DNA of 38,166 nucleotides from a virus. A model generated the notes under the pieces. It made no database searches and had not been told where the DNA came from. It worked only from the letters and a program-made list of their open reading frames with translations. Positions 989 through 24,021 of this stretch are shown in pieces. The stretch lies in the IMG/VR virus record IMGVR_UViG_3300045741_000329, positions 1 to 38,166 of that record; one strand, written 5' to 3'. A program made the position numbers and the translations under genes. Each line of letters begins with the position of its first letter. Positions within the stretch are counted from its first letter, which is position 1.

Positions 989-1837
989 TTATTCATCCTT
1001 TGTCGCCCAGAAACCCGTAAGCTTATCGAATTCGAATAGCGCCTTGGCCGCGAGGAATCCTTTGAAATCACGGTCCATGTTCTTCGGATCTTCGTCTAGG
1101 AATTTCGCCTCGAATACCTTGTATGGCGGGTACTGTATCGGATCACGGCCCCTCCGTACACGATTCTGGTTCTTCAGCACCATTCGGGCTTCGTATTCCT
1201 TTTCTGTTTCCTTTGCGAGTCTGATCAGCCATCTGCCGGCGTACTTTTTGCCTGACTCTTCTTCGTCTGCCTTCACGTACGCAGCGGTCTGCATATAGAA
1301 CTCGTTATACATTCCACTCGAGGTCTTTATATCGAGGAGACAGAGTTTGCCGTTTACCTTCGCTTCGATGTCCATTTTGCCGATGTAGTCATGCTTCTTG
1401 GAGTATACGACACGCTCGGACGAAATGAACTTGACCTTGTTCTCCGTTTCCCATTCTAGGAATGCTGTTACCCCAATCTGTGCCTCCCTACGCTCTGGCA
1501 TGTCAGGTTTCTCGCCTTTTATGTACTGCTCAACCCACTTATGTACCTCGTCTCCGACAGCCGCAGCCTCTGCCTTCCTCTCTTCGTGGATGGTAGATCC
1601 GGTAAATATATGCTCTTCGGTAATTCCGTCCTTTAGTGCGTCGAGCAGATAATTCCTGTATAACTCAGTTGCCCAGATTATGAGTCCGGGGCTCTTATCC
1701 TTTATGCCGCAATAGGTAGTAACTCCTGTCTTCCTTTTTCCTCCCACGTAGTACATATGACGCTTCGGCTTTTCATCCGTGGGACCGAGGAACTTTCCTT
1801 TCACCTTGCCTTTATAGAGTTCAAATTCAATTTCCAT
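989..1837 (-). CDS. PD-(D/E)XK exonuclease, Cas4/RecB-like (282 aa)
   Basis: The protein carries the ordered motifs of the PD-(D/E)XK nuclease superfamily: GDEVH with His99, then Glu141, Asp156 in GKMDIEA, the core Asp169-Ile-Lys171 in LLDIKTSS, and Gln183 in the MQTAAY helix. This is the RecB/Cas4/lambda-exonuclease-like layout. It probably degrades one strand of double-stranded DNA ends to expose the tails used by the Rad52-like annealing protein encoded immediately upstream in transcription (junction TAA-T-ATG). Together they form a two-component phage recombination system. No Cys iron-sulphur cluster like that of Cas4 is seen (a single Cys43 and Cys166), so it is more likely an exonuclease than a Cas4. 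C-terminal residues 200-282 show no motif. Confidence 0.85.
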   Translation of the reverse strand: MEIEFELYKGKVKGKFLGPTDEKPKRHMYYVGGKRKTGVTTYCGIKDKSPGLIIWATELYRNYLLDALKDGITEEHIFTGSTIHEERKAEAAAVGDEVHKWVEQYIKGEKPDMPERREAQIGVTAFLEWETENKVKFISSERVVYSKKHDYIGKMDIEAKVNGKLCLLDIKTSSGMYNEFYMQTAAYVKADEEESGKKYAGRWLIRLAKETEKEYEARMVLKNQNRVRRGRDPIQYPPYKVFEAKFLDEDPKNMDRDFKGFLAAKALFEFDKLTGFWATKDE

Positions 1838-1838
1838 A

Positions 1839-2588
1839 TTATTTCCGTGGAGCTACTTTCTGGCAGTTCCGACACAACGCCTTTCCCCATAACTTTTTTG
1901 AGAAGTTTGATTCCTCTTCCGTTATCTCATTACCATCGGGGCATCCGCTTCTCGAAGCACCGTGACAGTACAATTCCTTCACTGGACCGTCTACTGGCGC
2001 AGTAGGCTTTGGCTGAGTGGGTACGTTTGCCGGATCTTTACCTGATTCCTGTTTGTAGTCAGTCTTCCCGTATATGTCTCGTGCGATACCGAGCATAGAG
2101 GCACACTTTTTTAGTGCGTCTGACGATGCCCCCTTCAGGTCGTTACCGTAATCGAGGTTACCTCCTGATTTTAGCTGTTTTACGTCAGAGCGACCGAATT
2201 GAGTCTTCGTAATTGTGTGTTTCCCATCTGCGCTCCGGACGGTCAACTTTCCGAGTACCCATACATGATTTGATTCCTTGCCGTGTTCTATGATCTCGAA
2301 ATCCCAGTTCCAACCGAACACGTAGTCGAGAACCCTCTGAACATACGAGATAGTCACGTAATCGAAGGTCCCTCCACCCTTCCCAGGGCGCTTGTATACG
2401 TGTTGTGGGGGTGTTTTCTCTACCATGCGGACCAACTGATCACCTGTCAGCCATGTCTTAGGTATTGTGAGCTTTCTACCGTCTCGCAATGGCTCCGATA
2501 GGTCTGAGGTTGTGGGGGTAGTGTTCTGATCCACACGAACGACTATCTCATGCTTTACGGTGCTCGCTGTTTTCTTCGTTTTCTTCAT
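1839..2588 (-). CDS. Rad52/22-family single-strand annealing protein with zinc ribbon (249 aa)
   Basis: Residues about 62-175 match the Rad52/Rad22 annealing core: YVQRVLDYVFGWNWDFEII, a beta-sheet stretch, then NDLKGASSDALKKCASMLG, the hallmark helix of the family. Such proteins coat single strands and anneal complementary DNA. The C-terminus adds four cysteines (208, 216, 239, 242) that look like a zinc ribbon joined by a Pro-rich linker (184-203). It pairs with the exonuclease at 989-1837. The start ATG overlaps the stop of the upstream 58-aa gene (ATGA). The N-terminal 40 residues are Lys/Thr-rich and probably flexible. Confidence 0.85.
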   Translation of the reverse strand: MKKTKKTASTVKHEIVVRVDQNTTPTTSDLSEPLRDGRKLTIPKTWLTGDQLVRMVEKTPPQHVYKRPGKGGGTFDYVTISYVQRVLDYVFGWNWDFEIIEHGKESNHVWVLGKLTVRSADGKHTITKTQFGRSDVKQLKSGGNLDYGNDLKGASSDALKKCASMLGIARDIYGKTDYKQESGKDPANVPTQPKPTAPVDGPVKELYCHGASRSGCPDGNEITEEESNFSKKLWGKALCRNCQKVAPRK

Positions 2589-2762: not shown

Positions 2763-3314
2763 CTATTTAGAGAGTGAATTTATAATCTCCACCTTTGTCT
2801 TCGTATCGAGCTTCTTGGCGCAGTTCGCCCAGTTTGAATAACCGCCCTCCTGAAACAGAATGGTACGAGTAAGTTCTTTTGCTCGAGCGTGATCTATGGC
2901 GAGAGAGATAGCGTCTACCCTCGAGATATCATTGCCGGTGAACTGTTTCACGTAGTGCTGAATTGTCTTTATTTGATACTGCCATGCACCGATGCTCATC
3001 TGTGCGTTCGTGTCGAGAATGATGGTTGCATCCGGCTCCTTTACTCCTTTTGTCTCGCATCCGGCCAGTTCATCGAGTACAGTGTCCTGAGCTGCCTTTA
3101 TCTTATGTTCCATGATCTGAGCTGCCAGTTCGGTGCCTATAGAGTCAGCGCTCACATTTGTCGCTACCAGTTCCTTCGCTACCCAAGAATGTGACGCTAC
3201 CGCTGCACCGATCGTGAATAAGCACAATGACATCCCGACCTTCATCCATCGTCCGGTCGAGAACTTGCCACGTTGGTCCCTTATGGGTTTCCCCATGTAT
3301 GTAATTTTTTCCAT
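2763..3314 (-). CDS. Membrane-anchored lysozyme-like (transglycosylase-fold) protein (183 aa)
   Basis: Residues about 26-42 (VGMSLCLFTIGAAVASH) form one membrane segment after a short basic cytoplasmic tail. The outer part contains AGCETKGVK, then MSIGAWQYQIKTIQHYVKQ, then a helix bundle ending WANCAKKL. The Glu in CETKG with the later SIGAWQ stretch is the pattern of lysozyme/SLT-type folds seen in proteins of Patescibacteria and their phages. It would act on peptidoglycan outside the membrane. It is the first gene downstream of the leftward TTGCAA-type promoter, far from the endolysin, which hints at an early role (superinfection exclusion, DNA entry or envelope remodelling) rather than lysis. 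Catalysis is not proven. Confidence 0.6.
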   Translation of the reverse strand: MEKITYMGKPIRDQRGKFSTGRWMKVGMSLCLFTIGAAVASHSWVAKELVATNVSADSIGTELAAQIMEHKIKAAQDTVLDELAGCETKGVKEPDATIILDTNAQMSIGAWQYQIKTIQHYVKQFTGNDISRVDAISLAIDHARAKELTRTILFQEGGYSNWANCAKKLDTKTKVEIINSLSK

Positions 3315-3397
3315 AATATATTTTTATTCCTAATGTACCTCCTAGGTAACTGGCGGGAAGGGAGGCCGTGACCGCCCTATCGCTGTTACCGACTCAC

Positions 3398-3425
3398 ACT
3401 ATAGCAACCCCCTTGCAATTTGCAA
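3398..3425 (-). promoter_or_regulatory. Leftward early promoter
   Basis: On the minus strand a TTGCAA -35 box (3425-3420) and a TATAGT -10 box (3403-3398) are separated by 16 nt. Transcription would begin near 3391 and give a leader of about 75 nt before the lysozyme-like gene at 3314. The -35 box lies inside the palindrome at 3411-3427, so a bound repressor would block it. Confidence 0.6.
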
Positions 3426-3427
3426 GG
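3411..3427. promoter_or_regulatory. Operator-like palindrome 1 (CCTTGCAA-T-TTGCAAGG)
   Basis: This is a perfect 8-bp inverted repeat around a single central base. Its arms share the CTTGCAA/TTGCAAG core with the second palindrome at 3625-3651, and it covers the -35 box of the leftward promoter. Two related palindromes in one divergent control region are typical of repressor sites; which protein binds is unknown. Confidence 0.65.
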
Positions 3428-3445
3428 ACCGCTAACTGTGGAAAA

Positions 3446-3610
3446 CTAAACTATCTCGTTTTGCGGCTTATTCGCTACGTTTTTTAGATTATTGACTTTT
3501 TTTGATTTCAAACGTGGAATATTTTTAAAGTGATCGATGCCATGTTTCGCTAGTGTTGCGGTACCGCCGCGTTTACCGGCCTCGACGAAAAACTTCCGAG
3601 AAAATTTCAT
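3446..3610 (-). CDS. KGG-motif small basic protein (54 aa)
   Basis: Translation from ATG 3610 gives MKFSRKFFVEAGKRGGTATL, then AKHGIDHFKNI and a Lys-rich tail. The GKRGG-TATL-KHG-HF pattern is the KGG (stress-induced repeat) motif often found in short proteins of Patescibacteria and other bacteria. The upstream in-frame extension to 3676 crosses the operator and the opposite promoter, so I chose 3610. A possible -10 box (TACCCT, 3623-3618) ends 7 nt before this ATG, suggesting a leaderless message. The gene lies between the two TTGCAA palindromes, so it could be a regulator of this region, but no helix-turn-helix is evident. Confidence 0.6.
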   Translation of the reverse strand: MKFSRKFFVEAGKRGGTATLAKHGIDHFKNIPRLKSKKVNNLKNVANKPQNEIV

Positions 3611-3617
3611 GTGGCAT

Positions 3618-3646
3618 AGGGTATCATACTTGCAATCCCGTTGCAA
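3618..3646 (-). promoter_or_regulatory. Possible leftward promoter of the KGG gene
   Basis: On the minus strand TTGCAA (3646-3641) lies 17 nt before TACCCT (3623-3618), and the KGG gene's ATG is 7 nt further on. The -10 box is weak. It mirrors the rightward promoter on the same palindrome. Confidence 0.4.
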
Positions 3647-3651
3647 GTATG
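3625..3651. promoter_or_regulatory. Operator-like inverted repeat 2 (11-bp arms, 5-nt spacer)
   Basis: CATACTTGCAA (3625-3635) and TTGCAAGTATG (3641-3651) are perfect inverted repeats around TCCCG. Allowing one bulged base, the arms extend to 14 bp (3621 to 3654). The site lies between the divergent starts at 3610 (minus) and 3664 (plus), and both -35 boxes fall in its arms. It shares the CTTGCAA core with the palindrome at 3411-3427. Confidence 0.75.
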
Positions 3652-3657
3652 TACTAT
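3630..3657 (+). promoter_or_regulatory. Rightward promoter giving a leaderless start
   Basis: TTGCAA (3630-3635), a 16-nt spacer, TACTAT (3652-3657), then six bases and the ATG at 3664. Initiation at the usual 7 nt after the -10 box would place the first transcribed base at the A of the start codon. Confidence 0.55.
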
Positions 3658-3663
3658 GTGCAT

Positions 3664-3984
3664 ATGAAAAAAACACCGCTGAGGAAGATCGGAAAAGTCG
3701 GCGAGGCCAACATAGAAGCCCGTAAACGTATAGCCGTCATAGCCGAAGAGAAAGGACTGAACTACTGTGAATTGAACTTACCCGACATTTGTACAAGAAG
3801 GTGGCCACTTGCTCCCGCACATAGGCATAAGAGAGCATGGTACAAGGGAGACGTAGGCCTTTTATCAGACTTTAGCCAATGGGTCGCCGCCTGTCAGAGT
3901 TGCCACGACTTCATAGAACATAAACCCATGTTCACCGAAGAGTTATTTATCCAACTTCGCCCAAAAACAATCTTACCTAATTAA
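3664..3984 (+). CDS. HNH-type zinc endonuclease-like protein (106 aa)
   Basis: The product has Cys35 and Cys43 (CELNLPDIC), a basic LAPAHRHKR segment with His53 and His55, and Cys77-x2-Cys80-His81 (CQSCHDF). Two Cys pairs framing a His-rich segment is the layout of HNH/treble-clef nucleases found in phages, including NinG-like and packaging-associated forms. It probably binds zinc and nicks or cuts DNA. The frame is open further upstream (to 3553), but that would run through the operator, and the promoter places the transcript start at ATG 3664. No ribosome binding site is present, consistent with a leaderless message. It is first of the rightward unit; substrate unknown. Confidence 0.65.
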   Translation: MKKTPLRKIGKVGEANIEARKRIAVIAEEKGLNYCELNLPDICTRRWPLAPAHRHKRAWYKGDVGLLSDFSQWVAACQSCHDFIEHKPMFTEELFIQLRPKTILPN

Positions 3985-4011
3985 ATAAAACACACCTCTA
4001 GTAGAGAATGT

Positions 4012-4287
4012 ATGAAAGAAACAACATTTATTCCAACAGAAAGCATAAGCTATAAACTTTTGCGCCATGATACGAGTAAGGATATTTTTTATTATGAGGG
4101 CGGCTGGTGGATGTGCGGCGCGACTTACCGAGAATTAGAAGCCGACAGATTTAACAAAGAATACGGTGACAAACAAGTCTGGCTTGGAGAGTACAAAAAT
4201 ATGAACAATCGAGTTGTTTGTGCTCCGCGCCCAAATAAAGAGACAAAGGAAATTGAGTTAGATAAGTTTATTCTTCCAAGTTTTTAA
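4012..4287 (+). CDS. Hypothetical protein (91 aa)
   Basis: The protein opens MKETTFIPTESISYKLLRHD and has an aromatic middle (FYYEGGWWMCGATYRE) followed by WLGEYKNMNNRVV. It is probably a small cytosolic alpha/beta protein. I recognise no family. It is preceded by AGTAGAGAATGT, a motif also seen in front of two minus-strand genes near 37.87 and 38.04 kb. It follows the HNH gene by 27 nt and is likely on the same transcript. The tRNA begins 45 nt after its stop. Confidence 0.65.
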   Translation: MKETTFIPTESISYKLLRHDTSKDIFYYEGGWWMCGATYRELEADRFNKEYGDKQVWLGEYKNMNNRVVCAPRPNKETKEIELDKFILPSF

Positions 4288-4331
4288 TCCACCCCATATA
4301 AGAGAGTAATATATACTGATAAGGGGTAAAA

Positions 4332-4402
4332 TGCGGAGTAGTTTAATGGTAGAACGCAAGACCTTGGACCTTGCTATGTGGGTTCGATTCCTACCTCCGC
4401 AA
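4332..4402 (+). tRNA. tRNA, probably tRNA-Gln (anticodon TTG)
   Basis: A full cloverleaf folds: acceptor TGCGGAG/CTCCGCA (7 bp), D arm GTTT-AATGGTA-GAAC, anticodon stem CAAGA/CCTTG (4 bp plus an A-C mismatch next to the loop), and T arm GTGGG-TTCGATT-CCTAC. Base 4402 is the discriminator and CCA is not encoded. The loop CCTTGGA puts TTG (4364-4366) at the anticodon. Position 33 would then be C rather than the near-universal U, so shifting the reading to TGG (Pro) cannot be excluded. The D and T arms are convincing; amino-acid identity is not. Confidence 0.85.
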
Positions 4403-4443
4403 TAACAACTAACCTCTACTGGCGGTACAGGAGGATATTGTAT

Positions 4444-4462
4444 TCTCCGATGTGGAGATTTT
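4444..4462 (+). terminator. Weak possible terminator after the tRNA
   Basis: TCTCC (4444-4448) pairs with GGAGA (4454-4458) around GATGT and is followed by TTTT. Five base pairs is short, so this may be chance. Confidence 0.25.
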
Positions 4463-4717
4463 AAGGACTTTTCGTGGGAGAGCAGGTTTTGCACCTGTAA
4501 CTTGCGTTTCAGATATCACTCCGCGCAAATCCGACAAGGAATACTAGTCTACCCATTAGTAGATTTCACGCAGCCACGCGTAGTGCCGCCATCAAACTAA
4601 CCTCTCAACCTTTCACCTCGCACTCACCCCCGAAAAACCCTCAAAGACCATTATAACACCTCTTTACGGAATGAGTGTGTGGGGTTAGAGTTTTCCCCAT
4701 CCTCGCTACAGGGTATT

Positions 4718-4723
4718 TATAAT
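4718..4723 (+). promoter_or_regulatory. -10 box before the endolysin
   Basis: A perfect TATAAT lies 8 nt before a GTG codon (4732) in frame with the endolysin and 26 nt before its first ATG (4750). No good -35 box is seen. If this is the promoter, initiation near 4731 would make the GTG start nearly leaderless. Confidence 0.4.
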
Positions 4724-4731
4724 CCCCGATA

Positions 4732-5775
4732 GTGATATATCATTACCGTATGACAGATCCGAATGTGCCGAATTTCAACCCCGGAGGCGTTAAAGATAGA
4801 ATTGACTTGAGGGACTACCAATGGAAAGAGGTTGGTTTTGGATCTGCGCCGTTCGATTGGGATAAAGGTTTCGATATAGAATCTGAGTTGCTACAAAAAA
4901 TTCCTGTAAAGGACCAGAACGGCTCATTTTCTTGCGGTGGGCAGGCTTGGGCTACCTATGCTTCAGTGCTCGAGGCGTCATTTACTGGAACACTCGAGGA
5001 ACGATCTGCAAAGTATATATATGCGCAAACATACGCTCCGGCGGGTGGTTCGTACGGCAGAGACAACGCCGATCTGTTCGTAAAGCAAGGAGTTTCACGA
5101 GAAACACTTGTACCGTCCTACGAAAAAGGACTGCCACCATCCGAAGCTTTTATGACACGGGGACAGGATATAACCGAAGAGGCTCGAATAGATGCAAAAA
5201 GTGACAAGTCATTCTCGTATGCAAACGTTACCCCGAACATAGACTCCGTAGCGCAGGCTATTCGTGACAACAATGGTCTTATACTAGGAGTAGACGGGCA
5301 AAATAATGGCACATGGACTTCTTCTTTTCCGAAACCCCCCTCCACTACCGAATGGAGGCACTGGATATACGCCGGCAAAGCAAAAGTGATCGACGGAACA
5401 AAATATATAGGTGCTCTAAATTCATGGGGTGACCAAGTTGGGGACGGTGGTTGGCAGTGGCTCTCTCAGGACTTCTTCCCAAACGCAATTTTTGGGGCAT
5501 GGACGCATGTTTACAGCCCAATGGTACCAATTCCACACTTTCAACATAAATTCGCTCAGGACCTAAAATCGGGCGATTCAGGGCCGGAGGTCATAGCACT
5601 TCAAACGGCTCTCAAATTGGATGGGGAGTTTCCCACAGCAGTGCCTTGTACCGGATACTTCGGCACCGTAACATTAGCAGCAGTGAAGAAGTTCCAGACG
5701 AAGTATAAAATATCTCCTGTGTTCGGATTCGTCGGTCCGTTGACGCGGGCGAAACTTAATAGCTTATTTAGCTAA
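4732..5775 (+). CDS. Papain-like (C1 family) endolysin with C-terminal peptidoglycan-binding domain
   Basis: Numbering from GTG 4732 (347 aa), residues 58-260 carry the C1 peptidase signature: Gln62 six residues before Cys68 (PVKDQNGSFSCGG), His210 in WRHWIYAG and Asn230 in GALNSWG. Residues about 276-346 (LKSGDSGPEVIALQTAL, YFGTVTLAAVKKFQ) are a PG_binding_1 domain. The enzyme most likely cuts peptide bonds in host cell walls, and a small holin-like gene follows. There is no signal peptide, so a holin would be needed for release. The start is uncertain: GTG 4732 sits just behind a TATAAT box, ATG 4750 gives 341 aa, and neither has a clear ribosome binding site. Papain-type lysins are less usual than lysozyme or amidase types. 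Confidence 0.75.
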   Translation: MIYHYRMTDPNVPNFNPGGVKDRIDLRDYQWKEVGFGSAPFDWDKGFDIESELLQKIPVKDQNGSFSCGGQAWATYASVLEASFTGTLEERSAKYIYAQTYAPAGGSYGRDNADLFVKQGVSRETLVPSYEKGLPPSEAFMTRGQDITEEARIDAKSDKSFSYANVTPNIDSVAQAIRDNNGLILGVDGQNNGTWTSSFPKPPSTTEWRHWIYAGKAKVIDGTKYIGALNSWGDQVGDGGWQWLSQDFFPNAIFGAWTHVYSPMVPIPHFQHKFAQDLKSGDSGPEVIALQTALKLDGEFPTAVPCTGYFGTVTLAAVKKFQTKYKISPVFGFVGPLTRAKLNSLFS

Positions 5776-5777
5776 CT

Positions 5778-5978
5778 ATGTTCAAAAATGTATCAATGAC
5801 AGGAACGGGACTACTCGTTCTGTTAGCGATGTATGTTGCGAGTCTTTTGGGTCTCGACTTCAGCGAGTCGCAGGCGACAGTATTCATTGAAAAGTCTCTT
5901 GAGATCGCCGGAATCTTAATGACTCTCTTCGGACAGGTCAGTAGAAAGGACCTCAAGTTCGGTCTCTTCAGAAAGTAG
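5778..5978 (+). CDS. Holin-like small membrane protein (66 aa)
   Basis: Two hydrophobic stretches are visible, at about residues 9-25 (TGLLVLLAMYVASLLGL) and 40-55 (IAGILMTLFGQV), joined by an acidic loop (DFSESQATVFIEK). The tail is basic (SRKDLKFGLFRK). Size, topology and position two bases after the endolysin stop fit a small holin that lets the endolysin cross the membrane. Sequence alone cannot separate a holin from an antiholin or another membrane peptide. No ribosome binding site is seen; re-initiation after the endolysin is likely. Confidence 0.6.
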   Translation: MFKNVSMTGTGLLVLLAMYVASLLGLDFSESQATVFIEKSLEIAGILMTLFGQVSRKDLKFGLFRK

Positions 5979-5992
5979 AGTTCGTTGACTGG

Positions 5993-6037
5993 CTCCCCTC
6001 ATTGTTAGGGGAGTTTGTCAGCGAGTTGTTCTCGCTG
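5993..6037 (+). promoter_or_regulatory. Two tandem hairpins in the leader of the zinc-finger genes
   Basis: CTCCCCT (5993-5999) pairs with AGGGGAG (6007-6013). Directly after it CAGCGAG (6019-6025) pairs with CTCGCTG (6031-6037). Each stem is 7 bp and perfect. They lie between the holin-like stop and an AGGAGG ribosome binding site (6045-6050). They could slow transcription or shape translation of the next genes; no T-run follows. Confidence 0.5.
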
Positions 6038-6055
6038 TGTACCAAGGAGGCTGCA

Positions 6056-6220
6056 ATGATGCTCTGTCAATACTGCACTCGCCCTGCGAATATCAAGAAG
6101 GTCGTCCGTGATGACTGGGGACGTCCGAGGGATGTATGGCTCTGCGATGAACACGACCCGACGAATAAGACGGTCAACGGTTCCCGCAAACAATACATGG
6201 AGGATAAGTACGACAAATGA
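6056..6220 (+). CDS. Zinc-finger miniprotein (54 aa)
   Basis: Starting at ATG 6056, five bases after a strong AGGAGG, the product reads MMLCQYCTRPANIKK and later WLCDEHDPTNK. CxxC (CQYC) and CxxH (CDEH) pairs separated by about 24 residues make a plausible one-zinc finger. The frame is open upstream to 6002, but that stretch consists of the hairpins, so the later start is chosen. Its stop overlaps the next ATG (ATGA). Function unknown; such small phage zinc proteins often bind nucleic acid or host transcription factors. Confidence 0.7.
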   Translation: MMLCQYCTRPANIKKVVRDDWGRPRDVWLCDEHDPTNKTVNGSRKQYMEDKYDK

Positions 6221-6408
6221 AATCGTACTGCGAGCGACCTGAATGCGGCCGCGCCTTCGGCCTCGTCAGGAAGTACGCGAACAGGTGGAAGGGTATGCGA
6301 TGGCAATCCGTCCACTACTGTAGCTCCAAGTGCCGCGACCTTCACCAAGCTGAGATAAACGCTCAGGCAGTCAAGAAAAAGGACTGGTTCAAGTTCCTCT
6401 CTCAGTGA
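6217..6408 (+). CDS. Treble-clef-like zinc miniprotein (63 aa)
   Basis: The sequence contains CERPECGRAF near the N-terminus and YCSSKCRDLHQAEINAQ near the middle. This CxxxxC ... CxxxC spacing with a following helix resembles short treble-clef fingers. It is translated by ATGA overlap with the previous zinc protein, so the two probably act together. A strong terminator begins 12 nt after its stop, making it the last gene of the rightward lysis unit. Function unknown. Confidence 0.7.
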   Translation: MKSYCERPECGRAFGLVRKYANRWKGMRWQSVHYCSSKCRDLHQAEINAQAVKKKDWFKFLSQ

Positions 6409-6419
6409 TCTGAGAAACT

Positions 6420-6443
6420 GGAGGCCCTCGGGCTTCCTTTTTT
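6420..6443 (+). terminator. Rho-independent terminator of the rightward lysis unit
   Basis: GGAGGCC pairs with GGCTTCC (one G-T pair) around a CTCG loop and is followed by six T (6438-6443). It closes the unit that begins at 3664. Confidence 0.85.
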
Positions 6444-6708
6444 AGCGAACCTTCAGGGAACCGAAGAACACTTTCGATACAGGATACCTCCTTCTTCTAG
6501 CGTCATCACAAACACTTTTCAAATAATATAGGTCAGTGAGTGATAGTCCACCGAGCTTTATCGCAACAACACGCGGTGTTATTTTTTTAAAATTTGTTCC
6601 GTTTCTCTCTAAATTTATTTCGTTTGTGAAGTAATCTATAAGATCTCCTCTCTCCGATGAATGCTTCTTAGTCTCCTTTACTTGAAACAATCTACCTATA
6701 GATTCCAT
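6442..6708 (-). CDS. Hypothetical protein (88 aa)
   Basis: The protein begins MESIGRLFQVKETKKHSSER, has a hydrophobic KITPRVVAIKLGGLSLTDLYY core and a basic DDARRRRYPVSKVFFGSLKVR end. It probably forms a small alpha/beta domain with a helix packed on strands, and the basic tail may contact DNA. No family recognised. It follows the nuclease-like gene by five bases on the minus strand and is likely co-transcribed with it. Its last bases reach the T-run of the opposite-strand terminator. The pair is visibly more A/T-rich than its neighbours, which may point to separate acquisition. Confidence 0.6.
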   Translation of the reverse strand: MESIGRLFQVKETKKHSSERGDLIDYFTNEINLERNGTNFKKITPRVVAIKLGGLSLTDLYYLKSVCDDARRRRYPVSKVFFGSLKVR

Positions 6709-6713
6709 AGAGC

Positions 6714-7043
6714 TTAATTCCCGACTTTATAAACTTTAAAATTTTCTCTAACTATCACGAAACAGTCTCCACTACCCGCGTAATTTATGACTTTGAATAC
6801 GGACTTTCTACGCGGTGTAACTCTATCAACTTCAATAGGATACTCTCGTTCATTGTATTTAAAGACGATGTCGATTCTACCACGCCTACCATCGCCTCTG
6901 TTTGAAACAATAACCTGTCTTTTCACTTTCCCTAATTTTTCTAAACAAGCGCAAATTAAATTCTCAAATTCTTTTGCATTGGTATCTTTAAATACCATAC
7001 CCTCCTTAATACCTATTAACTCTGTGAGTTCCTTGGAATTCAT
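6714..7043 (-). CDS. PD-(D/E)XK-type nuclease-like protein (109 aa)
   Basis: The central part reads KEFENLICACLEKLG, then GRRGRIDIVFKYNE and REYPIEVDRVTPRRKS. A helix with Glu, an Asp in a beta strand (RIDIVFK) and a Glu in the next strand (YPIEVD) match the restriction-endonuclease-like core, with EVD where ExK is usual. The missing lysine makes activity uncertain. A small Holliday-junction resolvase or VRR-NUC-like role is possible. Its leader (7044-7190) has no other gene and contains a TATAAT at 7196-7191 without a clear -35 box. AAGAAG about 10 nt upstream of ATG may serve as ribosome binding site. Confidence 0.5.
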   Translation of the reverse strand: MNSKELTELIGIKEGMVFKDTNAKEFENLICACLEKLGKVKRQVIVSNRGDGRRGRIDIVFKYNEREYPIEVDRVTPRRKSVFKVINYAGSGDCFVIVRENFKVYKVGN

Positions 7044-7227
7044 AATTCATTCTTCTTAGATTGTGGTTGCGCCCCCCTCCCCGCTTCTGTAGTAAACAGA
7101 ATCGTTGGAAGAAGACGCAAGCAACTCTATTCATTCCCCTTGAGTTGTCGGCTGTTTTTCGGCACACCGAGCCTGCGCGAGAACTGGTTTATTATACTGC
7201 CCCAGTTACACCCCCCGGCAGTAACAC
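7044..7227. other. Non-coding leader of the nuclease-like gene
   Basis: There is no convincing gene. On the minus strand it holds TATAAT (7196-7191), TACTGCC/GGCAGTA arms near 7195-7222, and two short hairpins (CGG-TGTG-CCG and TCTGT-TTACT-ACAGA). A 42-codon frame from about 7133 overlaps the nuclease start and is not supported. Confidence 0.4.
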
Positions 7228-7249
7228 AAAAAGCCACCTTGCGGCGGCT
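7228..7249 (-). terminator. Rho-independent terminator with GNRA loop, minus strand
   Basis: On the minus strand AGCCGCC pairs with GGTGGCT (one G-T pair) around a GCAA tetraloop, and a run of T follows. It lies directly after the TAG of the 35-aa gene at 7250-7357 and would end its message. Confidence 0.75.
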
Positions 7250-7357
7250 CTATGTGATGTCGTCAATGATGACGTTGTTGCTCACGCGAGAGCGAAAGTC
7301 AGCTTGCGCTGCTGTACTCGCACGAACAATAACTTCATTATCATCATTTATCGACAT
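7250..7357 (-). CDS. Stand-alone 35-aa protein gene
   Basis: The frame reads MSINDDNEVIVRASTAAQAD followed by FRSRVSNNVIIDDIT and a TAG. It is framed by a predicted promoter (TTGAGT, 17 nt, TAAGGT) whose -10 box ends 7 nt before the ATG and by a strong terminator directly after the stop. A short open frame exactly fitted between such signals is unlikely by chance. The protein is small, mildly acidic and probably folds as a strand-helix-strand or works by binding a partner. No family recognised. It is divergent from the sugar operon and could be a regulator or an anti-host peptide. Confidence 0.55.
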   Translation of the reverse strand: MSINDDNEVIVRASTAAQADFRSRVSNNVIIDDIT

Positions 7358-7364
7358 ACTCGCA

Positions 7365-7393
7365 ACCTTATCATGCGAATATCGATCACTCAA
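7365..7393 (-). promoter_or_regulatory. Promoter of the 35-aa gene
   Basis: On the minus strand TTGAGT (7393-7388) and TAAGGT (7370-7365) are 17 nt apart. The ATG of the 35-aa gene begins 7 nt after the -10 box, again pointing to a leaderless message. The -10 box is only a fair match. Confidence 0.45.
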
Positions 7394-7432
7394 TAGGTAC
7401 CTGTGGAAAACTCAGTTGCGCCTAATTTATCG

Positions 7433-7441
7433 TGTTATAGT
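7433..7441 (+). promoter_or_regulatory. Extended -10 promoter of the sugar operon
   Basis: TG-T-TATAGT (7433-7441) is an extended -10 box, followed by ACTGCT and an ATG at 7448. No clear -35 box is needed for this class. Transcription would start at the ATG of a 13-codon leader frame that overlaps the transketolase start. Confidence 0.55.
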
Positions 7442-7447
7442 ACTGCT

Positions 7448-7489
7448 ATGGAACGTACCGCAACATACGGTGTTCGAGCGCATGAATAA
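7448..7489 (+). CDS. 13-codon leader peptide overlapping the transketolase start
   Basis: The frame MERTATYGVRAHE starts six bases after the -10 box, so it would be the first codon of a leaderless transcript. Its TAA (7487-7489) lies inside the second and third codons of the transketolase gene (ATGAATAAG), placing the ribosome on the ATG at 7482. It may exist to deliver ribosomes to a gene that lacks its own binding site. Inference from layout only. Confidence 0.4.
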   Translation: MERTATYGVRAHE

Positions 7490-8243
7490 GTACAAGGATA
7501 AGGCACTGGCCGCACGCAGAAAGGTCCTTACGATGATTCATAAGGCCGGTACTTCCCATATTGCAAGTAATTTTAGCGTAATCGATATAGCGACAGTACT
7601 GTATGAAAACCTTAAACCTGGAGATCAGGTCGTTTGGAGTAAGGGATGGGCGGCGGCCACTATATACTATTTTCTCGCGCAACAAGGAAAAATTCCTACG
7701 GAGGATCTGGAGAAATTCCCAGAATTTCCATACATCGGTCTCGCTGAGACTTCAGTCAATGGGGTGCTTTGTAACGGTGGAGCCGTTGGTCACGGTACAC
7801 CGGTAGCGACAGGGATTGCTTTGGGGAAGAAGCGTGCAGGGGACCCTGGAAGGGTTTACTGCGTCATGTCTGACGGAGAGCTCAACGAAGGAACTGTGTG
7901 GGAAAGTGTAATGGTTGCTTCTCATCACAAGCTCAATAACCTCGTATTCGTTATCGATGTGAACAAATGGCAAGCGATGGGCAAAACGAGCGATGTGATC
8001 GACCTCGAGCCAATTGAAAAGCGCTTCGGAGGCTTCGGGTTCTTCTGGCTCCGGTGCAACGGCCACAATTACGATGAACTGCACTCGGTGTTTAATAATT
8101 ATAAGTCAGGTGATGCTCCTATGGTTATAATCTGCGACACGATAAAGGGAAAGGGAGTGTCATGGATGGAAAATCATCTTCTATATCACTATAAGAATAT
8201 CGATGATGTGGCCTATAAGAGCGCGATGAAGGAACTCGTATGA
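7482..8243 (+). CDS. Transketolase-like, N-terminal (TPP-binding) subunit (253 aa)
   Basis: The protein covers the pyrophosphate domain of transketolase: GGAVGHGTPVATGIALGKK (about 99-117) and the thiamine-diphosphate/Mg motif SDGELNEG with Asn161 in VFVIDVNKW (about 130-161). Separate N and C subunits are known in this family. I chose ATG 7482, which gives the usual N-terminus (MNKYKDKALAARRKVL); the open frame upstream crosses the promoter. It overlaps the partner gene by ATGA. In surface-sugar clusters such split enzymes transfer two-carbon units to make unusual sugars, which fits the neighbours. The substrate cannot be read from sequence. Confidence 0.85.
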   Translation: MNKYKDKALAARRKVLTMIHKAGTSHIASNFSVIDIATVLYENLKPGDQVVWSKGWAAATIYYFLAQQGKIPTEDLEKFPEFPYIGLAETSVNGVLCNGGAVGHGTPVATGIALGKKRAGDPGRVYCVMSDGELNEGTVWESVMVASHHKLNNLVFVIDVNKWQAMGKTSDVIDLEPIEKRFGGFGFFWLRCNGHNYDELHSVFNNYKSGDAPMVIICDTIKGKGVSWMENHLLYHYKNIDDVAYKSAMKELV

Positions 8244-8746
8244 TTACAGAGATACCGAAACAACAGCTTCGAAAAGCTTTCATAGAGACACTGTCTGATC
8301 TAGCGGAAAAGGACCCTCGGATCATGCTCGTATACGGAGATGTCGGATTCTCATTCATGGAGGACTTCATAAAAAAGTTCCCTAACCAATCGCTGAATGC
8401 GGGAATTGCTGAGCAGAACATGATGGGCATGGCCGCAGGTCTATGTCTCGCCGGATGGAAGCCATACGTCTATACAATGGTAAATTTCATACTTCTGCGA
8501 CCACTTGAACAGTTGCGCAATGATATATGCTACTCGAAAGCAAACGTAAAACTTTTTGGTGTGAAGGGTGGAGCAGCGTATAAGTTCCTCGGACACTCAC
8601 ATAACATGTTCGGGAATGAAGACCGAAAAATACTTTCATGTCTTCCCAACATAAAGTGCTATTTCCCGGAGACGGAGCCGGAAGCCAGAGACTATATAAA
8701 AGCAGAATACCATTTACACCAAGGACCATCCTATATGCAGCTATGA
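8240..8746 (+). CDS. Transketolase-like, pyrimidine-binding subunit lacking the C-terminal domain (168 aa)
   Basis: Residues include LVYGDVGFSF and GIAEQNMMGMAAGLCLAGW with Glu58, the catalytic glutamate that activates thiamine diphosphate. The protein ends right after the domain (GPSYMQL). Partner subunits of this type are usually near 300 residues with an extra C-terminal domain, absent here. The lost part is not present downstream in any frame; a membrane peptide gene begins at the stop instead (ATGA). The C-terminal domain is not needed for cofactor binding, so the pair could still be active. Truncation at a clean domain edge suggests selection rather than decay. Confidence 0.85.
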   Translation: MITEIPKQQLRKAFIETLSDLAEKDPRIMLVYGDVGFSFMEDFIKKFPNQSLNAGIAEQNMMGMAAGLCLAGWKPYVYTMVNFILLRPLEQLRNDICYSKANVKLFGVKGGAAYKFLGHSHNMFGNEDRKILSCLPNIKCYFPETEPEARDYIKAEYHLHQGPSYMQL

Positions 8747-8835
8747 AGGACGATAAGCTATTTTTCGCGGGTCTATTCATGGGAATATTTATTTTTTTCT
8801 CAATGTATCTTTTCATTAAAATCGCATCTCTATGA
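8743..8835 (+). CDS. 30-residue single-span membrane peptide
   Basis: ATG 8743 overlaps the transketolase stop and its own TGA overlaps the dehydratase ATG at 8832, so it is held in the operon by two ATGA junctions. The peptide MKDDKLFFAGLFMGIFIFF continues SMYLFIKIASL: a short charged head and one long hydrophobic helix. It could anchor or recruit the sugar enzymes at the membrane or act as a toxin-like peptide; neither is shown. It replaces the expected C-terminal domain of the transketolase subunit. Confidence 0.6.
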   Translation: MKDDKLFFAGLFMGIFIFFSMYLFIKIASL

Positions 8836-9644
8836 AACGCATACTCATAACTGGTATAGCAGGAACTATAGGTTCAGAACTTGCTCGTCAGCTTTGCAAA
8901 AAAAACAAGGTATATGGTATCGACAACAACGAGTCCGGACTCGCAGATCTTATGGAGGAGCTCGGTATTCCTGGTCGGGTCGGTGACATACGGAATGAGA
9001 CGACGGTGCGCGATGTGTTCTCAGATTTCAAGCCGGAGATCGTCTACCACGCAGCGGCGCTGAAACACGTTACCGCGATGGAGTTAGTTCCTCGCGAAGC
9101 AGTAATGACAAATATTATAGGCACATTAAATGTAATTGAATATGCAAAAAGATGGGAATGCGTCGAAAAGTTTGTTTTCATCAGCACAGATAAAGCGGTT
9201 CAAAGCTCTTCGATCATGGGGGCAACTAAGAGAGTTGGAGAAATTATTGTGCGTAACCAAGGTAGGGGTTTTGTGGTCGTGCGGTTCGGGAATGTATTGG
9301 GATCTCGAGGATCGGTCATCCCCATCTGGCAGAGACAAATCAATCAGAAAAAACCGATCACGGTCACGTCTCCGGAAATGACACGCTACATGATGACCAT
9401 AGAACAGGCTGTCGGACTGGTTATAAAGGCCGCAGAGATAGGAAAAGGAGGAGAAATAATCTGCCTCGATATGGGCAAGAAGGTGAACGTGCTCGACTTG
9501 GCGAAGCAGATAGTAAAAGACGCTCAAACGGATACCCCGATAAAAATAACGGGGATACGGAAGGGTGAACAATTAACAGAGCAGCTTATGTTTCTCGAGG
9601 AGGAACAGCGGGCAGTGCGAAAGGGTAATTTTATAATCATATGA
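8832..9644 (+). CDS. FlaA1/CapD-type nucleotide-sugar 4,6-dehydratase (270 aa)
   Basis: This is an extended SDR with GIAGTIG (8-14) for NAD(P), then VGDIR, YHAAALKHV and ISTDKAVQSSSIMGATKR. Ser118-Thr-Asp120-Lys121, Met129 and Lys133 match the inverting UDP-GlcNAc 4,6-dehydratase group (FlaA1, PseB, CapD short forms), in which Met stands in place of the SDR tyrosine. It would make a UDP-4-keto-6-deoxy-hexose for the aminotransferase encoded next. At 270 residues it is shorter than the usual about 330, missing part of the C-terminal substrate lid, so substrate choice is uncertain. Soluble, no membrane segments. Confidence 0.85.
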   Translation: MKRILITGIAGTIGSELARQLCKKNKVYGIDNNESGLADLMEELGIPGRVGDIRNETTVRDVFSDFKPEIVYHAAALKHVTAMELVPREAVMTNIIGTLNVIEYAKRWECVEKFVFISTDKAVQSSSIMGATKRVGEIIVRNQGRGFVVVRFGNVLGSRGSVIPIWQRQINQKKPITVTSPEMTRYMMTIEQAVGLVIKAAEIGKGGEIICLDMGKKVNVLDLAKQIVKDAQTDTPIKITGIRKGEQLTEQLMFLEEEQRAVRKGNFIII

Positions 9645-10633
9645 AGGTACGATTCTTTAATCCGGGGAAGGCATACGAAAACAAAAAGGACGTTTACGAT
9701 AGCGAGATTCAGCGAGTTCTCCGTTCCGGAGATTTAATATTGAGGAAGGATGTGGAGACTTTTGAGGAAAACTTAGCTCGGTTCTGTGGTAAGAAATACG
9801 CAGTTGGGCTCAATAGTGGTACGGATGCTCTCTACCTGAGCTTGTGGGCAATCGGTATCGGTCCCGGTGACGAGGTTGTTGTACCTTCACATACCTTTGT
9901 AGCAACGGCGCAGGTTGTGGCACAACTTGGCGCAGTTCCTGTATTGGTGGATATGGATGAAGACTGGAGAGACTACATCACGGAAAAAACTCGCGCATGT
10001 ATCCCCGCGCACATAGCCGGAGAGATTCTTGACTGGAAGCCTGTAGATGGAATACCTATGATAGACGATTCTTGCCAGTCACTCGGCGCCGATGGATTCC
10101 GAGGGGTCGTCCAGTGTTGGAGTTTCTACCCCGCTAAGATACTGGGCGCCTTTGGAGATGCAGGTGGAATAACGACCGATAATGAGATTCTGTACGAGGA
10201 AATAAAGGAACTTCGTGGACACTACAAAAAAGACTACTCACGGTGGGGTATAAATTCTCGTCTCGACAATCTGCAAGCTGCCATCCTGAATATAAAGATT
10301 GCGGATCTGAATAGTACGCTTGCTCGTAGGAAGGAAATTGCAGACCGCTATTCCGGTTACTTGGCGGGTCCCGAAGGTCTTCCACTGAAATCGGAAGGCC
10401 GGGTATGGCAGGACTATATTATCAGAACGAAAAAACGAGATGAGTTGCATGAGTTCCTGAGAGAAGTTGGAGTTGAAACAATGATAAACGAGTATCCAAT
10501 GCCCATCGGGAAGAAACCTCGAGCTGCTGCATACGAGGCAGAAACATTGCGACTTCCTATAAACGAAATCCTCACAAACGAAGAGGTGGACTACGTGATA
10601 GAGATGATAAATGAATTCTATGCAGTGCAATAA
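9641..10633 (+). CDS. DegT/DnrJ/EryC1/StrS-family sugar aminotransferase (330 aa)
   Basis: Motifs in order are GLNSGTDALYLSLWA (56-70), VVPSHTFVATA, IDDSCQSLGA with Asp143 (pyridoxal ring contact), and FYPAKILGAFGDAGG with Lys166 as the cofactor-binding lysine. Enzymes of this family move an amino group from glutamate to a keto sugar on a nucleotide carrier. Its position directly after the dehydratase (ATGA overlap) suggests it aminates that product. Length is a little under the usual 360-380. The 3' end overlaps the amidotransferase gene by 23 nt. Confidence 0.9.
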   Translation: MKVRFFNPGKAYENKKDVYDSEIQRVLRSGDLILRKDVETFEENLARFCGKKYAVGLNSGTDALYLSLWAIGIGPGDEVVVPSHTFVATAQVVAQLGAVPVLVDMDEDWRDYITEKTRACIPAHIAGEILDWKPVDGIPMIDDSCQSLGADGFRGVVQCWSFYPAKILGAFGDAGGITTDNEILYEEIKELRGHYKKDYSRWGINSRLDNLQAAILNIKIADLNSTLARRKEIADRYSGYLAGPEGLPLKSEGRVWQDYIIRTKKRDELHEFLREVGVETMINEYPMPIGKKPRAAAYEAETLRLPINEILTNEEVDYVIEMINEFYAVQ

Positions 10634-11633
10634 GTGCGTGATGGATAACTCAGCAAGTGAAATCACCCTAGATGACAAGGGTGTATGTAACTTTTGTCAT
10701 CAGGCACAGATGGAATTGCAGGGAATAAAGAAGTTAGATCTGCAGAAGGACATGCCTAAGCGTGGAGAAACATACGATGTTCTTATAGGGTTATCGGGTG
10801 GCGTGGACAGTTCGTGGACTCTATACCAAGCTGTCCAACTAGGGTTACGGCCGCTCTGCTTCACTATCGACAACGGATACAATAAGCCGGAAGCCGATGA
10901 GAATATCATGCGTCTCGTGGAGGGTTTGAAAGTTCCTTTCTATCGCTACAACATCGATATGAAGAAGTTCCACGAGTTACAGTCTGCATTCATTCACTCG
11001 GGTGTTCGTAATATAGAGATTCCGACTGATCACATACTCATGGCGGCAAGTTATGAGCTCGCATCGAAGTACGGAATTCGAACTATCCTAAGTGGAGGAA
11101 ACGTAAATACTGAAAGTATCATGCCGCCTTCGTGGGGATATTCGGCAAGAGATCTCGTACACATAAAGGCCATATATAAGAAATTTTGCGGTAAAAATCT
11201 TTCAGGACTTCCCGTGTGTTCGTTGCTCAAGTACAACTACTACTTGTGGATTAAACGTATCAAAGTATTCTATCTGCTCGACTATTTGTTTTATGATAGA
11301 CGCATCGCGGAGGAGAGGCTTATACAGGAGTTTGGATTCAAGAGCACCGGAGAGAAGCACGAGGAAAACGTTTTTACACAATGGTTTCAGAACTTCTACC
11401 TCTTCCAGAAGTTCGGAATAGATAAACGGAAAGCGCACTACTCGAGTATGATAAACTCAGGTCAAATGTCTCGTGCGGAAGCCCTTGATAAGCTCACAGC
11501 GAGCCCTATATATCCCGAATTAGGTATAGAGAAGAGGATTATGAAGTACGCTAAGCACGAACATGCAGACTATCCCACAGACCAGAGGCGTTACGACTTT
11601 ATCCGTAAATTGGTGAAACTATGCGGATTCTAA
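10611..11633 (+). CDS. N-acetyl sugar amidotransferase (WbpG/PseA-like) (340 aa)
   Basis: The N-terminus has Cys6, Cys9, Cys26 and Cys29 ([18 protein letters not shown]), a zinc site typical of this family, followed by the ATP-pyrophosphatase loop SGGVDSS (62-68). Relatives convert an N-acetyl group on a nucleotide sugar to an acetamidino group, using ammonia from a partner glutaminase. That partner appears to be the next gene. Start at ATG 10611 overlaps the aminotransferase; ATG 10620 is an alternative that keeps the zinc site. The rest (about 200-340) has the usual helical substrate domain. Confidence 0.85.
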
Positions 11634-12094
11634 ACGACTTCAAAACGACCGTTAGGAAAGCATTGTGGGAAATCGACCATAAATTCATGGACTATCCCGG
11701 CTTGATTGTGTGCGGATCTCATACACCAACAAATATCGAACAAACGATTCGGGACATAAAAGAGGCAAGAGAAAACGACATACCGTTCCTTGGAATATGT
11801 TTCGGTCACCAACTTGCCTATATAGAATACTGCCGGAATGTCTGCGGCATAACGGATGCAACAAGCGAGGAGTTTTCCACGGAAGGTACTTTTGTTGTTC
11901 GCAAACGCCCTGAAATAAAAGTGGGTCTACACGACGGGGAAACGTGGTGGAGCAACTTTGAGTGTCTCGACGATGAGTGGCCCCGACCCGCGAACTTCTT
12001 TACTGCACCGTTTCATCCTGAGTATCAGAGTTCGAGAGGAAATCCGCATCCTTTACTCGCTAACTTCATAAAATATGCAAAAGTGGCAGTGTAG
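11621..12094 (+). CDS. Class I glutamine amidotransferase, glutaminase subunit (157 aa)
   Basis: Cys60 in FLGICFGHQ and His131-Glu133 in FHPEYQSS form the class I triad. The FHPEYQSS and PHPLLANF wording resembles the glutaminase domain of CTP synthase more than HisH. It would release ammonia from glutamine for the amidotransferase encoded just before (13-nt overlap). In Pseudomonas WbpG systems a HisH-type and a HisF-type protein assist; no HisF-like gene is seen here. At 157 residues it is short for a domain of about 200, with segments around residues 28-40 apparently trimmed. Confidence 0.8.
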
Positions 12095-12884
12095 AACAGC
12101 TCCTTCGATCGGAGCGCTTGAGGATACTCCGGATAATATCTGGCATACGAAACCATACTTGGATGAATTTCAGCCGACCGTATTTTTCGGACTTTATGGC
12201 CTGAATGACTTCTATACACTCTGGAGACATAAGGGACGCAAGTGCATACTATGGGCCGGTTCAGATATCCAACATTTTCTACTTGGATACTGGTTGGATG
12301 AGGAGGGTAAGATGAGGATACATCCCACGCAGTTATCAAACTGGATAGATACATACTGTGAGAACTATGTTGAAAATGAGGTTGAACAGAACGCACTTCG
12401 AAGTGTTGGGATAAGGAGCAAGGTGGTTCCCTCGTTTCTAGGAAAAATAGGCGAGTACGAGATTGCGTACGAATTTAGCGTAACTCCAAAGCTTTATACA
12501 TCAGTCTCCGGAAATAATTACGAATTGTATGGGTGGGATAAAATTGCTGCATTGGCACAGGCGCATCCCGAAGTTGAATTTCATCTTTACGGTTCAAACA
12601 CACCATTTCCTACCCCTCTTACGAACATGATCGACCACGGCAGAGTTCCAAAAGAACAAATGAATGAAGAAGTAAAGAACATGCAGGGGTGTCTCCGGCT
12701 CACTTCATTCGATGGGTTCTCTGAGATCGTTGCGAAAGCACTTCTCTGGGGACAGTGGCCGGTTTCTATCATTGAATACCCGCATACACTACGACCTGAT
12801 TCGATCGTCTTCCCCAAGGAGCCGAATCTGAAAGGTCGTGATTGGCTATTAGCGAACGTGAATAGATACCCCTGGGTATGCTAA
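12075..12884 (+). CDS. GT-B fold glycosyltransferase-like protein (269 aa)
   Basis: The C-terminal half resembles the donor-binding domain of GT4-type glycosyltransferases: [10 protein letters not shown] (about 167-175), a [14 protein letters not shown] helix and [15 protein letters not shown] (212-226), where Glu217 and the following helix correspond to the nucleotide-sugar site. The N-terminal half (about 1-130) is shorter than usual but has strand-helix repeats. It likely transfers the sugar made by the operon. It overlaps the glutaminase gene by 20 nt, and the methyltransferase gene by 7 nt. Acceptor and donor are unknown. Confidence 0.65.
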
Positions 12885-13504
12885 AAACAACTAAACAGCA
12901 CCTGAAGTACTGGAGGGACCGGAAGATAGATTGGGGAACACACTACACCGCTACGTGGAACCACCCACATAGAATGCTGATAACAATGGTCCTGAAGTCA
13001 TTCCCGTGGATGTCCTTATGGGAAGTTGGTTGTGGTTCGGGACCGAACTTGATACGTCTCGTACGCGAAGGGTTCACGGATAGGCAGCTCGGCGGGTCGG
13101 ATGTAAATCCGGATGCAATTGAACTTGCGTCTAAGACATTCCAGAACGGTAAATTCCACTGTGAGCCATCTGACGATATTTTGCTCAGCGATCAGTCAGT
13201 CGATGTGATGCTTTCCGACGCGCACTTAATATACATAGGTCCGCTCAAAATCAAGAAAGTTCTAGGGGAAATGATTCGAGTAACGAGAAACCATATCGTA
13301 CTCTGTGAATTTCATTCGAAGTACTTCTGGAAACGTTGGTGGTTTAGGTTACGAAGCGGGTACAACGCATACGACTATAAAAAACTACTGGAGAGCCTCG
13401 GATGCTACGATGTGCAGATTGCAAAAATTCCAAAGGAGTTCTGGCCGGGAACTCCGTGGGAAGAATGGGGTCATGTTATAACAGCTAAAATAGTTCATGT
13501 ATGA
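12878..13504 (+). CDS. SAM-dependent methyltransferase (208 aa)
   Basis: SLWEVGCGSGPNLIRL (47-61) is methyltransferase motif I and GGSDVNPDAIELA the following acidic loop, with later DVMLSDAHLIYIG and the usual seven-strand alternation. It belongs to the Methyltransf_11/25 type acting on small molecules or sugars. In a glycan operon it could methylate a sugar hydroxyl or cap a chain. The start ATG lies in the end of the glycosyltransferase gene. The C-terminus (FWPGTPWEEWGHV) is soluble, with no membrane anchor. Confidence 0.8.
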   Translation: MLKTTKQHLKYWRDRKIDWGTHYTATWNHPHRMLITMVLKSFPWMSLWEVGCGSGPNLIRLVREGFTDRQLGGSDVNPDAIELASKTFQNGKFHCEPSDDILLSDQSVDVMLSDAHLIYIGPLKIKKVLGEMIRVTRNHIVLCEFHSKYFWKRWWFRLRSGYNAYDYKKLLESLGCYDVQIAKIPKEFWPGTPWEEWGHVITAKIVHV

Positions 13505-14406
13505 AAAATGCCTTTCTCGTATGCGTTCCTTTCACTGGTCTCGGACTATACGGAGGATTTCGCGGTAATCGTTGGCTGAGAAACCGAGTTGCTGTATTCA
13601 AAAAATTCGTCATACCGTCATTACTCAGCCAGACAGATAGAGACTTCATTGTGTGGGTCGCATGGCGAGAAGAAGAAAAAAATAATCCGATTGTAAAGGA
13701 GCTATTGCGATATATGCAGGCGATTCCGAACTTCAGGGTGATTTTTACTTATTCAGGAGTACCGTTCTGGGACGATAAGTACGACGACGAGACGGCACGT
13801 ATGCGCCTATTCCGAACGCTGAAGGATGCATTCCCTGCTCTCATGGAGGTTACGTCGGACTGTGACGAGATTTACTGGCTATTACAACCTAGTGACGACT
13901 TATACGATAGAAACACCGTAGATTCCGTTAGGAAGGCATTCAGAGAAACCGATGCTCAGGCTGTCAGTTTCACATGTGGATACATATGCAACTACTCCAC
14001 GATGGAAGTTCTGGAGTATAATCCTAATACGAACCCACCGTTTTTCGCTATAAAGTTCGATCGTAAAACATTCTTCGATCCTGGTAAACACATGAATTAC
14101 ACTGGGCCATACAAAAGTCACGAGTACATAGGTGACAAACTGAAATTGGCAAAGTTTGAGGGACGAGGATTCTTGGTCGGAACTCATGGAGAAAACATAT
14201 CGACACATTTCAATCATCCATTCGGAGGCGCAAAGGTCGAGGGCGTACTGGACAATTTCGGAATCAGTGGATTATCACCCATTCGATTGCCGATATCGTA
14301 CAGGAAGTGGGTGATGCGAAGGCTACCGTACCGGTGGCAGAGAAAGTTACGGTACATCTTCGGTGAGTTACTTTATTCGAGGTTTTATAATTGGATAAGA
14401 AATTAA
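13501..14406 (+). CDS. GT-A type glycosyltransferase, rhamnosyltransferase-like (301 aa)
   Basis: The N-terminus (AFLVCVPFTGLG) and RNRVAVFKKFVIPSLLSQTD resemble the putative rhamnosyltransferase family found in phage and capsule clusters. Asp132-Asp133 in QPSDDLYDRNTV probably coordinate the metal and nucleotide sugar. The C-terminal region is basic and aromatic (RKWVMRRLPYRWQRKLRY), suggesting loose membrane contact. It overlaps the methyltransferase gene by ATGA. It is the second transferase of the operon, so at least a disaccharide-scale change is possible. Specific sugar unknown. Confidence 0.7.
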   Translation: MKNAFLVCVPFTGLGLYGGFRGNRWLRNRVAVFKKFVIPSLLSQTDRDFIVWVAWREEEKNNPIVKELLRYMQAIPNFRVIFTYSGVPFWDDKYDDETARMRLFRTLKDAFPALMEVTSDCDEIYWLLQPSDDLYDRNTVDSVRKAFRETDAQAVSFTCGYICNYSTMEVLEYNPNTNPPFFAIKFDRKTFFDPGKHMNYTGPYKSHEYIGDKLKLAKFEGRGFLVGTHGENISTHFNHPFGGAKVEGVLDNFGISGLSPIRLPISYRKWVMRRLPYRWQRKLRYIFGELLYSRFYNWIRN

Positions 14407-14408
14407 AT

Positions 14409-23974: not shown

Positions 23975-23986
23975 AGGTGCTAACTT

Positions 23987-24010: not shown

Positions 24011-24021
24011 TGAGTCAGAAA

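Follow-up and report, generated by a model that had tools for sequence, protein, structure and literature searches.

In the immunity region of phage lambda, a left operator and promoter (OL/PL), the leftward gene cI and a right operator with the overlapping divergent promoters PRM and PR follow one another, repeated dyads lie over the -35 boxes, and the left and right sites are kilobases apart. The conjugation switch of pLS20 (Pc/Pr) has one operator on overlapping divergent promoters and a second one nearby, at a distance of 75 bp; its regulator, RcoLS20, is a known helix-turn-helix (HTH) protein (PMC4207663). A third kind of arrangement is found in bidirectional promoters with a shared symmetrical -10, where pseudo-symmetrical DNA binds RNA polymerase in one orientation at a time and the starts lie ~10-23 bp apart round the one -10 (PMC12825309). 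DnaA-stimulated transcription of lambda pR/ori is cited as known in PMC3985674 (its reference 18).

In this study, we analysed a complete viral record of 38,166 bases, referred to below as the window. A perfect direct repeat of 110 bp occupies both 335-444 and 38057-38166, and its presence at both ends shows the genome to be circular, with ~37.7 kb. The first 334 bases appear to be an assembly side branch, and IMG/VR lists the record as linear despite the repeat that closes it. Once the circle is closed, nearly all genes read outward from 3391-3664. The leftward unit runs from 3391 to 445, through the 110-bp repeat to 38166 and on to 16150; it begins with the gene for a 183-aa membrane-anchored protein (2763..3314, minus strand), continues with a Rad52-type annealing protein and an exonuclease (989..2588, minus strand; Pfam Rad52_Rad22, 8e-9; PHROG exonuclease, 1e-27) and, past the junction, with terminase, capsid and the remaining genes. 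The rightward unit (3664 to 16107) opens with an HNH nuclease gene of 106 aa (3664..3984, plus strand; PHROG HNH endonuclease, 1e-3), whose relatives in the loci L003, L004 and L005 are 59%, 57% and 45% identical, and goes on to a tRNA-Gln (4332-4402), endolysin, holin and sugar genes. This layout supports the view that 3391-3664 is the outward-facing divergent control region of a circular phage.

Some further features of the genome were recorded. Two small leftward genes at 6442-7043 are an exception within the rightward block, and one of them matches phrog_1347, an unnamed phage family, and weakly a restriction-type nuclease. The segment 7140-16107 is a rightward carbohydrate block with a transketolase in two parts, an epimerase, a DegT aminotransferase, an amidotransferase, a methyltransferase and a rhamnosyltransferase-like gene; a similar block stands directly before the terminase genes in another locus, L024. 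Further very stable hairpins, partly at gene ends, lie at 7051-7270, 5961-6060 and 23951-24050. Among annotated phages, the nearest were distant Rad52 matches only, in Polaribacter phages. One candidate relative, G152, with a terminase match of 45%, was rejected, as it is a mobile element with recombinases.

The sequence-only reading had described two palindromes in the control region that share CTTGCAA, at 3411-3427 with 8-bp arms and at 3625-3651 with 11-bp arms. Both were confirmed and are perfect (palindrome 1, CCTTGCAATTTGCAAGG, with a loop of 1; palindrome 2, CATACTTGCAATCCCGTTGCAAGTATG, with a loop of 5). Each alone is within chance: the window has six inverted repeats with perfect arms of 8 bp or more against 5.3 expected, and an 11-bp arm was present in 12% of shuffled windows. 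The pair is not due to chance: CTTGCAA-N0-10-TTGCAAG occurs twice in 38 kb and not at all in 100 shuffles, and none of 400 shuffles had two palindromes with a 7-bp arm in common less than 300 bp apart. TTGCAA is self-complementary, so that each 'palindrome' amounts to paired hexamers reading alike on both strands, spaced by 7 bp in the left palindrome and by 11 bp in the right. No intrinsic terminator was found at either palindrome. A site for a host transcription factor was rejected, the palindrome being found in 2 of 380 Patescibacteria-phylum genomes, which is the chance level; a search of all viral contigs for the palindrome with a -10 pattern gave 11 matches, nearly all within genes, which was likewise attributed to chance.

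It had also been claimed that the palindromes overlap -35 boxes, and by consensus match three TTGCAA -35 boxes with -10 partners are indeed present. The predicted leftward early promoter (3398..3425, minus strand) has its -35 at 3425-3420, a spacer of 16 nt and TATAGT at 3403-3398 as part of an extended -10, TGCTATAGT, with a predicted start near 3391. Consensus match alone predicts an HNH promoter (3630..3657, plus strand; TTGCAA at 3630-3635, 16 nt, TACTAT at 3652-3657) and a weak promoter for the KGG gene (3618..3646, minus strand; TTGCAA at 3646-3641, 17 nt, TACCCT at 3623-3618), which have palindrome 2 as their common upstream part. The window has exactly two matches to TTGCAA-N16-TANNNT, at 3425-3398 (minus) and 3630-3657 (plus), with 0.37 expected; when spacers of 15-18 were allowed, the KGG promoter was the sole extra site. 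Given the palindromes, three -10 matches would come about by luck with p ~0.009. By their coordinates, the dyads are centred at about -28, -26 and -28 relative to the starts predicted for the three promoters. The HNH and KGG mRNAs are probably leaderless, because their ATG codons come 6 nt and 7 nt (at 3610) after the respective -10. The predicted KGG and HNH promoters overlap as mirror images of each other.

An imperfect dyad of 65 bp (3605..3669), which has both start codons inside, is built round palindrome 2 as its core. Its fold (-32.1 kcal/mol, z -7.0, 0/200 shuffles) is among the window's strongest 70-nt hairpins, while its flank symmetry was equalled at 98 of 20,000 random places and is in part simply ATGAAA at both starts, a common sequence. 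A fold of this stability could mean that the dyad works as RNA, a 65-nt hairpin acting on translation by hiding, in read-through transcripts, the start codon of HNH. However, a perfect dyad folds by construction and the hairpin would be missing from transcripts of the predicted starts, and we consider such an element very unlikely. The hairpin is not a terminator, because it has no T-run. The leader hairpin at 3391-3315 was no stronger than shuffles (z -0.6).

Between the two palindrome sites lies the KGG gene (3446..3610, minus strand), coding for 54 aa (MKFSRKFFVEAGKRGGTATLAKHG...). The KGG protein has no Pfam or PHROG match and no HTH, and its structure model is helical with low confidence (pLDDT 65). 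Small KGG ORFs are also found beside HNH in L003 and L004 and beside Rad52 in L010. The earlier statement that no known repressor adjoins the site agrees with our search of ~40 window proteins, including all near the site, none of which gave an HTH or repressor match; for KGG, HNH and the other neighbours there was no match beyond nuclease. As its gene stands between the sites, the KGG protein is a candidate operator protein, albeit one without a known DNA-binding fold. No integrase or recombinase was found among the window proteins scanned, and a decision between lysis and lysogeny is therefore unsupported. The same result, together with the location on promoters, makes it extremely improbable that palindrome 2 is a recombinase crossover site, even though 11-bp arms round a 5-bp core are similar in length to those of such sites.

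The DnaA-box consensus is TTATCCACA. A DnaA-type box, TTTTCCACAG (3436..3445, minus strand), with one mismatch to TTATCCACAG, lies 9 nt upstream of the leftward CTTGC. We took as a module a box no more than 30 nt upstream of CTTGC, followed by 16-17 nt to the -10. With one mismatch allowed, the leftward promoter (gap 9, spacer 16, TATAGT) is the only match in the window, where 0.0 are expected, and the HNH and KGG promoters have no box. Seven Rad52-bearing loci, L007, L008, L009, L010, L011, L034 and L037, have TTATCCACAG, which matches the DnaA-box consensus perfectly, ahead of the early operon, and behind this box come a TTGC/TTGA -35 and a TATAnT-like -10. The module of L149 is followed at once by a gene related to the one for the 183-aa protein that opens the leftward unit (34%, 1e-19); a DUF5681 gene and a terminase come next. 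Among related loci the box was reversed in 1 place, against 8 forward rows (4 distinct loci, each twice). That the predicted leftward early promoter is a conserved one, standing before the early operon, is thus well supported by conservation. Other arrangements were also seen. L100 has a relative of the 183-aa gene (2888-3463) diverging from a box-module promoter (2231-2275) ~600 bp off, the same pieces in a different order with a chaperonin-like gene adjoining. In L007 (4590-4615) and L009 (4525-4550), GCGTAA is present three times between the -35 and -10 of the early promoter, as a possible operator or iteron.

Conservation of the palindromes, the check that the sequence-only reading had set for itself, failed in all relatives examined: palindrome 1 and palindrome 2 are absent from ~28 whole related or candidate records (11 + 17), and TTGCAA pairs in the set of 11 occur in other settings only, two within an HNH-type gene and one within another ORF. 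Over its TTGCAA promoter, L011 carries another palindrome, AACCGCTTGT-N11-ACAAGCGGTT, unrelated to these two, as would follow if every phage had an operator of its own. The observation of the sequence-only reading is therefore confirmed and its interpretation as a transcription switch partly supported, in that a divergent control region with a conserved leftward promoter is present, while the palindromes are not conserved and no repressor was found.

All viral contigs were scanned for TTATCCACAG-N0-30-CTTGC-N18/19-TATAnT, which gave 93 stretches comprising 73 distinct CTTGC-type promoters. By our own arithmetic, from the 11 essentially random matches that a 17-base pattern had given in these contigs, chance would give ~10. 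Fifty-seven of the 73 lie outside long ORFs, and 50 have an ORF start within 250 nt. The gaps from box to CTTGC cluster at 5-9 and 14-18 (peaks at 7 and 15), with none at 0-2 or 12-13. A Rayleigh test at 10 bp gave R=0.49 with a nominal p of ~3e-8, for a set in which several periods were tried and residual relatedness remains, which is conditioned on CTTGC and perfect boxes and in which the gap cannot vary freely below 3. In ~70% of the class promoters AG stands just before the box, and the -10 is often extended. In 96 Patescibacteria-phylum genomes the box module was found 0 times, with far fewer than one expected at the viral rate. The perfect TTATCCACA of the relatives and the phasing of the gaps indicate that a DnaA consensus box on a fixed helical face is a feature of the class, of which the window's box is a member with one mismatch. 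Within the collection, the box is in tandem duplicate (GGCTAGAAGTTATCCACAG twice) upstream of one promoter in L179 (525-592). A KGG-type gene (584-727) is the first gene behind the module (783-830) in L103 (584-830), and L187 has a module and a KGG-type ORF near 1077.

A DnaA box and repeats beside recombination genes could also mark a replication origin, activated by transcription from the promoters, as is reported of lambda ori. The perfect DnaA consensus in relatives, the change of sign in GC skew near the control region and the three GCGTAA repeats that L007 and L009 have at this place would all fit an origin. Against it, there is only one box and it always comes with a promoter in the right place, phasing of box and -35 on the helix is a property of promoters, the skew change is equally expected from divergent transcription, and no AT-rich unwinding stretch or initiator gene was recognised alongside. 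We regard an origin as unlikely.

As to the palindromes, the pattern TTGCAA-N5-TTGCAA, with up to 2 mismatches, is found in two places only in the window, perfect at 3630-3646 and with 1 mismatch at 3402-3418 (TAGCAACCCCCTTGCAA), and both have CCC in the N5 spacer. This is the best-supported reading of a common operator. It moves the left site off palindrome 1 and onto the spacer and the first two -10 bases of the leftward promoter. This left copy, the 65-bp dyad at 3605-3669 and the DnaA-like box at 3445-3436 are additions to the sequence-only reading. It is possible, though rather less than probable, that there is no operator at all, and that TTGCAA, as the preferred -35 of this promoter class, which happens to be self-complementary, makes palindromes automatically wherever divergent promoters overlap, the third TTGC before TATAGT being an extended -10. 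In module promoters the base after CTTGC is indeed A in 59%, CTTGCAT and CTTGCAA being the commonest forms, TGn precedes the -10 in 23 of 73, and the right site is composed of two mirror promoters. Yet the left site lacks a -10 partner for rightward transcription and still has perfect 8-bp arms and an extra TTGCAA, the arms of the right site continue past CTTGCAA (CATA/TATG), and the N5 form with its CCC is common to both sites. Moreover, inverted repeats with 7-bp arms that span the core of module promoters were enriched about fourfold over shuffles in which only -35 and -10 were kept (14 of 72 against 3.7 +/- 1.9, with 0 of 300 shuffles reaching 14), although for 8-bp arms the excess was weak (3 against 1.0). 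The palindromes are probably the phage's own operator, at roughly even chances.

We infer all functions of the control region from its sequence, and the model that we favour combines a conserved box-type early promoter with an operator specific to this phage, which recurs at a pair of overlapping divergent promoters; as a whole, it has about the same chance of being right as of being wrong. The box would be read by a protein, in the simplest case host DnaA, that contacts RNA polymerase from face-dependent distances upstream of the TTGC-type -35 and -10 and so activates the early genes. The KGG and HNH starts, ~54 bp apart, have -35 and spacer DNA in common, so that one polymerase at a time could occupy the pair. 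TTGCAA-N5-TTGCAA, one per promoter, would be the operator at which a phage-specific DNA-binding protein blocks polymerase; within the window the element is confined to these promoters, which supports this reading. The differing loops of the palindromes (1 and 5) argue against binding of one dimer to both, and the same dimer could fit both sites only if the left one is read as 3402-3418. Against an operator, promoter elements account for every half-site except the middle TTGCAA of the left site. More generally, many uncultivated phages may have in common an early promoter class that host DnaA, or another reader of the same box, activates in a face-dependent manner from one of two helical positions ahead of a TTGC-type -35, each phage having its own palindromic operator over the core; here the operator would be repeated at the mirror-image pair, and KGG would be a new kind of regulator. 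This extension is tentative and, taken in full, doubtful. If true, it would provide a sequence rule by which early promoters and operators could be found in uncultivated phages with unrecognisable repressors, and would tie early phage transcription to the host replication initiator. The conserved promoter class is a more valuable result than the palindromes. Our literature search found no paper on TTGCAA operators or on the box-module promoter class, which does not imply that none exists.

Compared with the systems described above, the control region has the lambda order of left operator and promoter, leftward gene and right operator with overlapping divergent promoters, and, at the level of sequence, also repeated dyads over -35 boxes. 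It differs from lambda in that its sites are only 219 bp apart, in that a 54-aa KGG protein without HTH takes the position of cI, and in that no Cro or integrase was found; membership of the lambda type fails on repressor and integrase. With pLS20 it has in common an operator on overlapping divergent promoters and a second operator nearby (PMC4207663), whereas the operator spacing differs and no HTH regulator was found here. The likeness to bidirectional promoters lies in pseudo-symmetrical DNA that would bind polymerase in one orientation at a time (PMC12825309); a promoter of that type was rejected, as the starts predicted at 3610 and 3664 have separate -10s and the shared part is the -35 and spacer. 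In comparison with lambda pR/ori as cited in PMC3985674, the box here lies upstream of the -35 at phased distances and the role of DnaA is putative, but the host replication initiator would, as in lambda, act on a phage early promoter through DnaA-type boxes.
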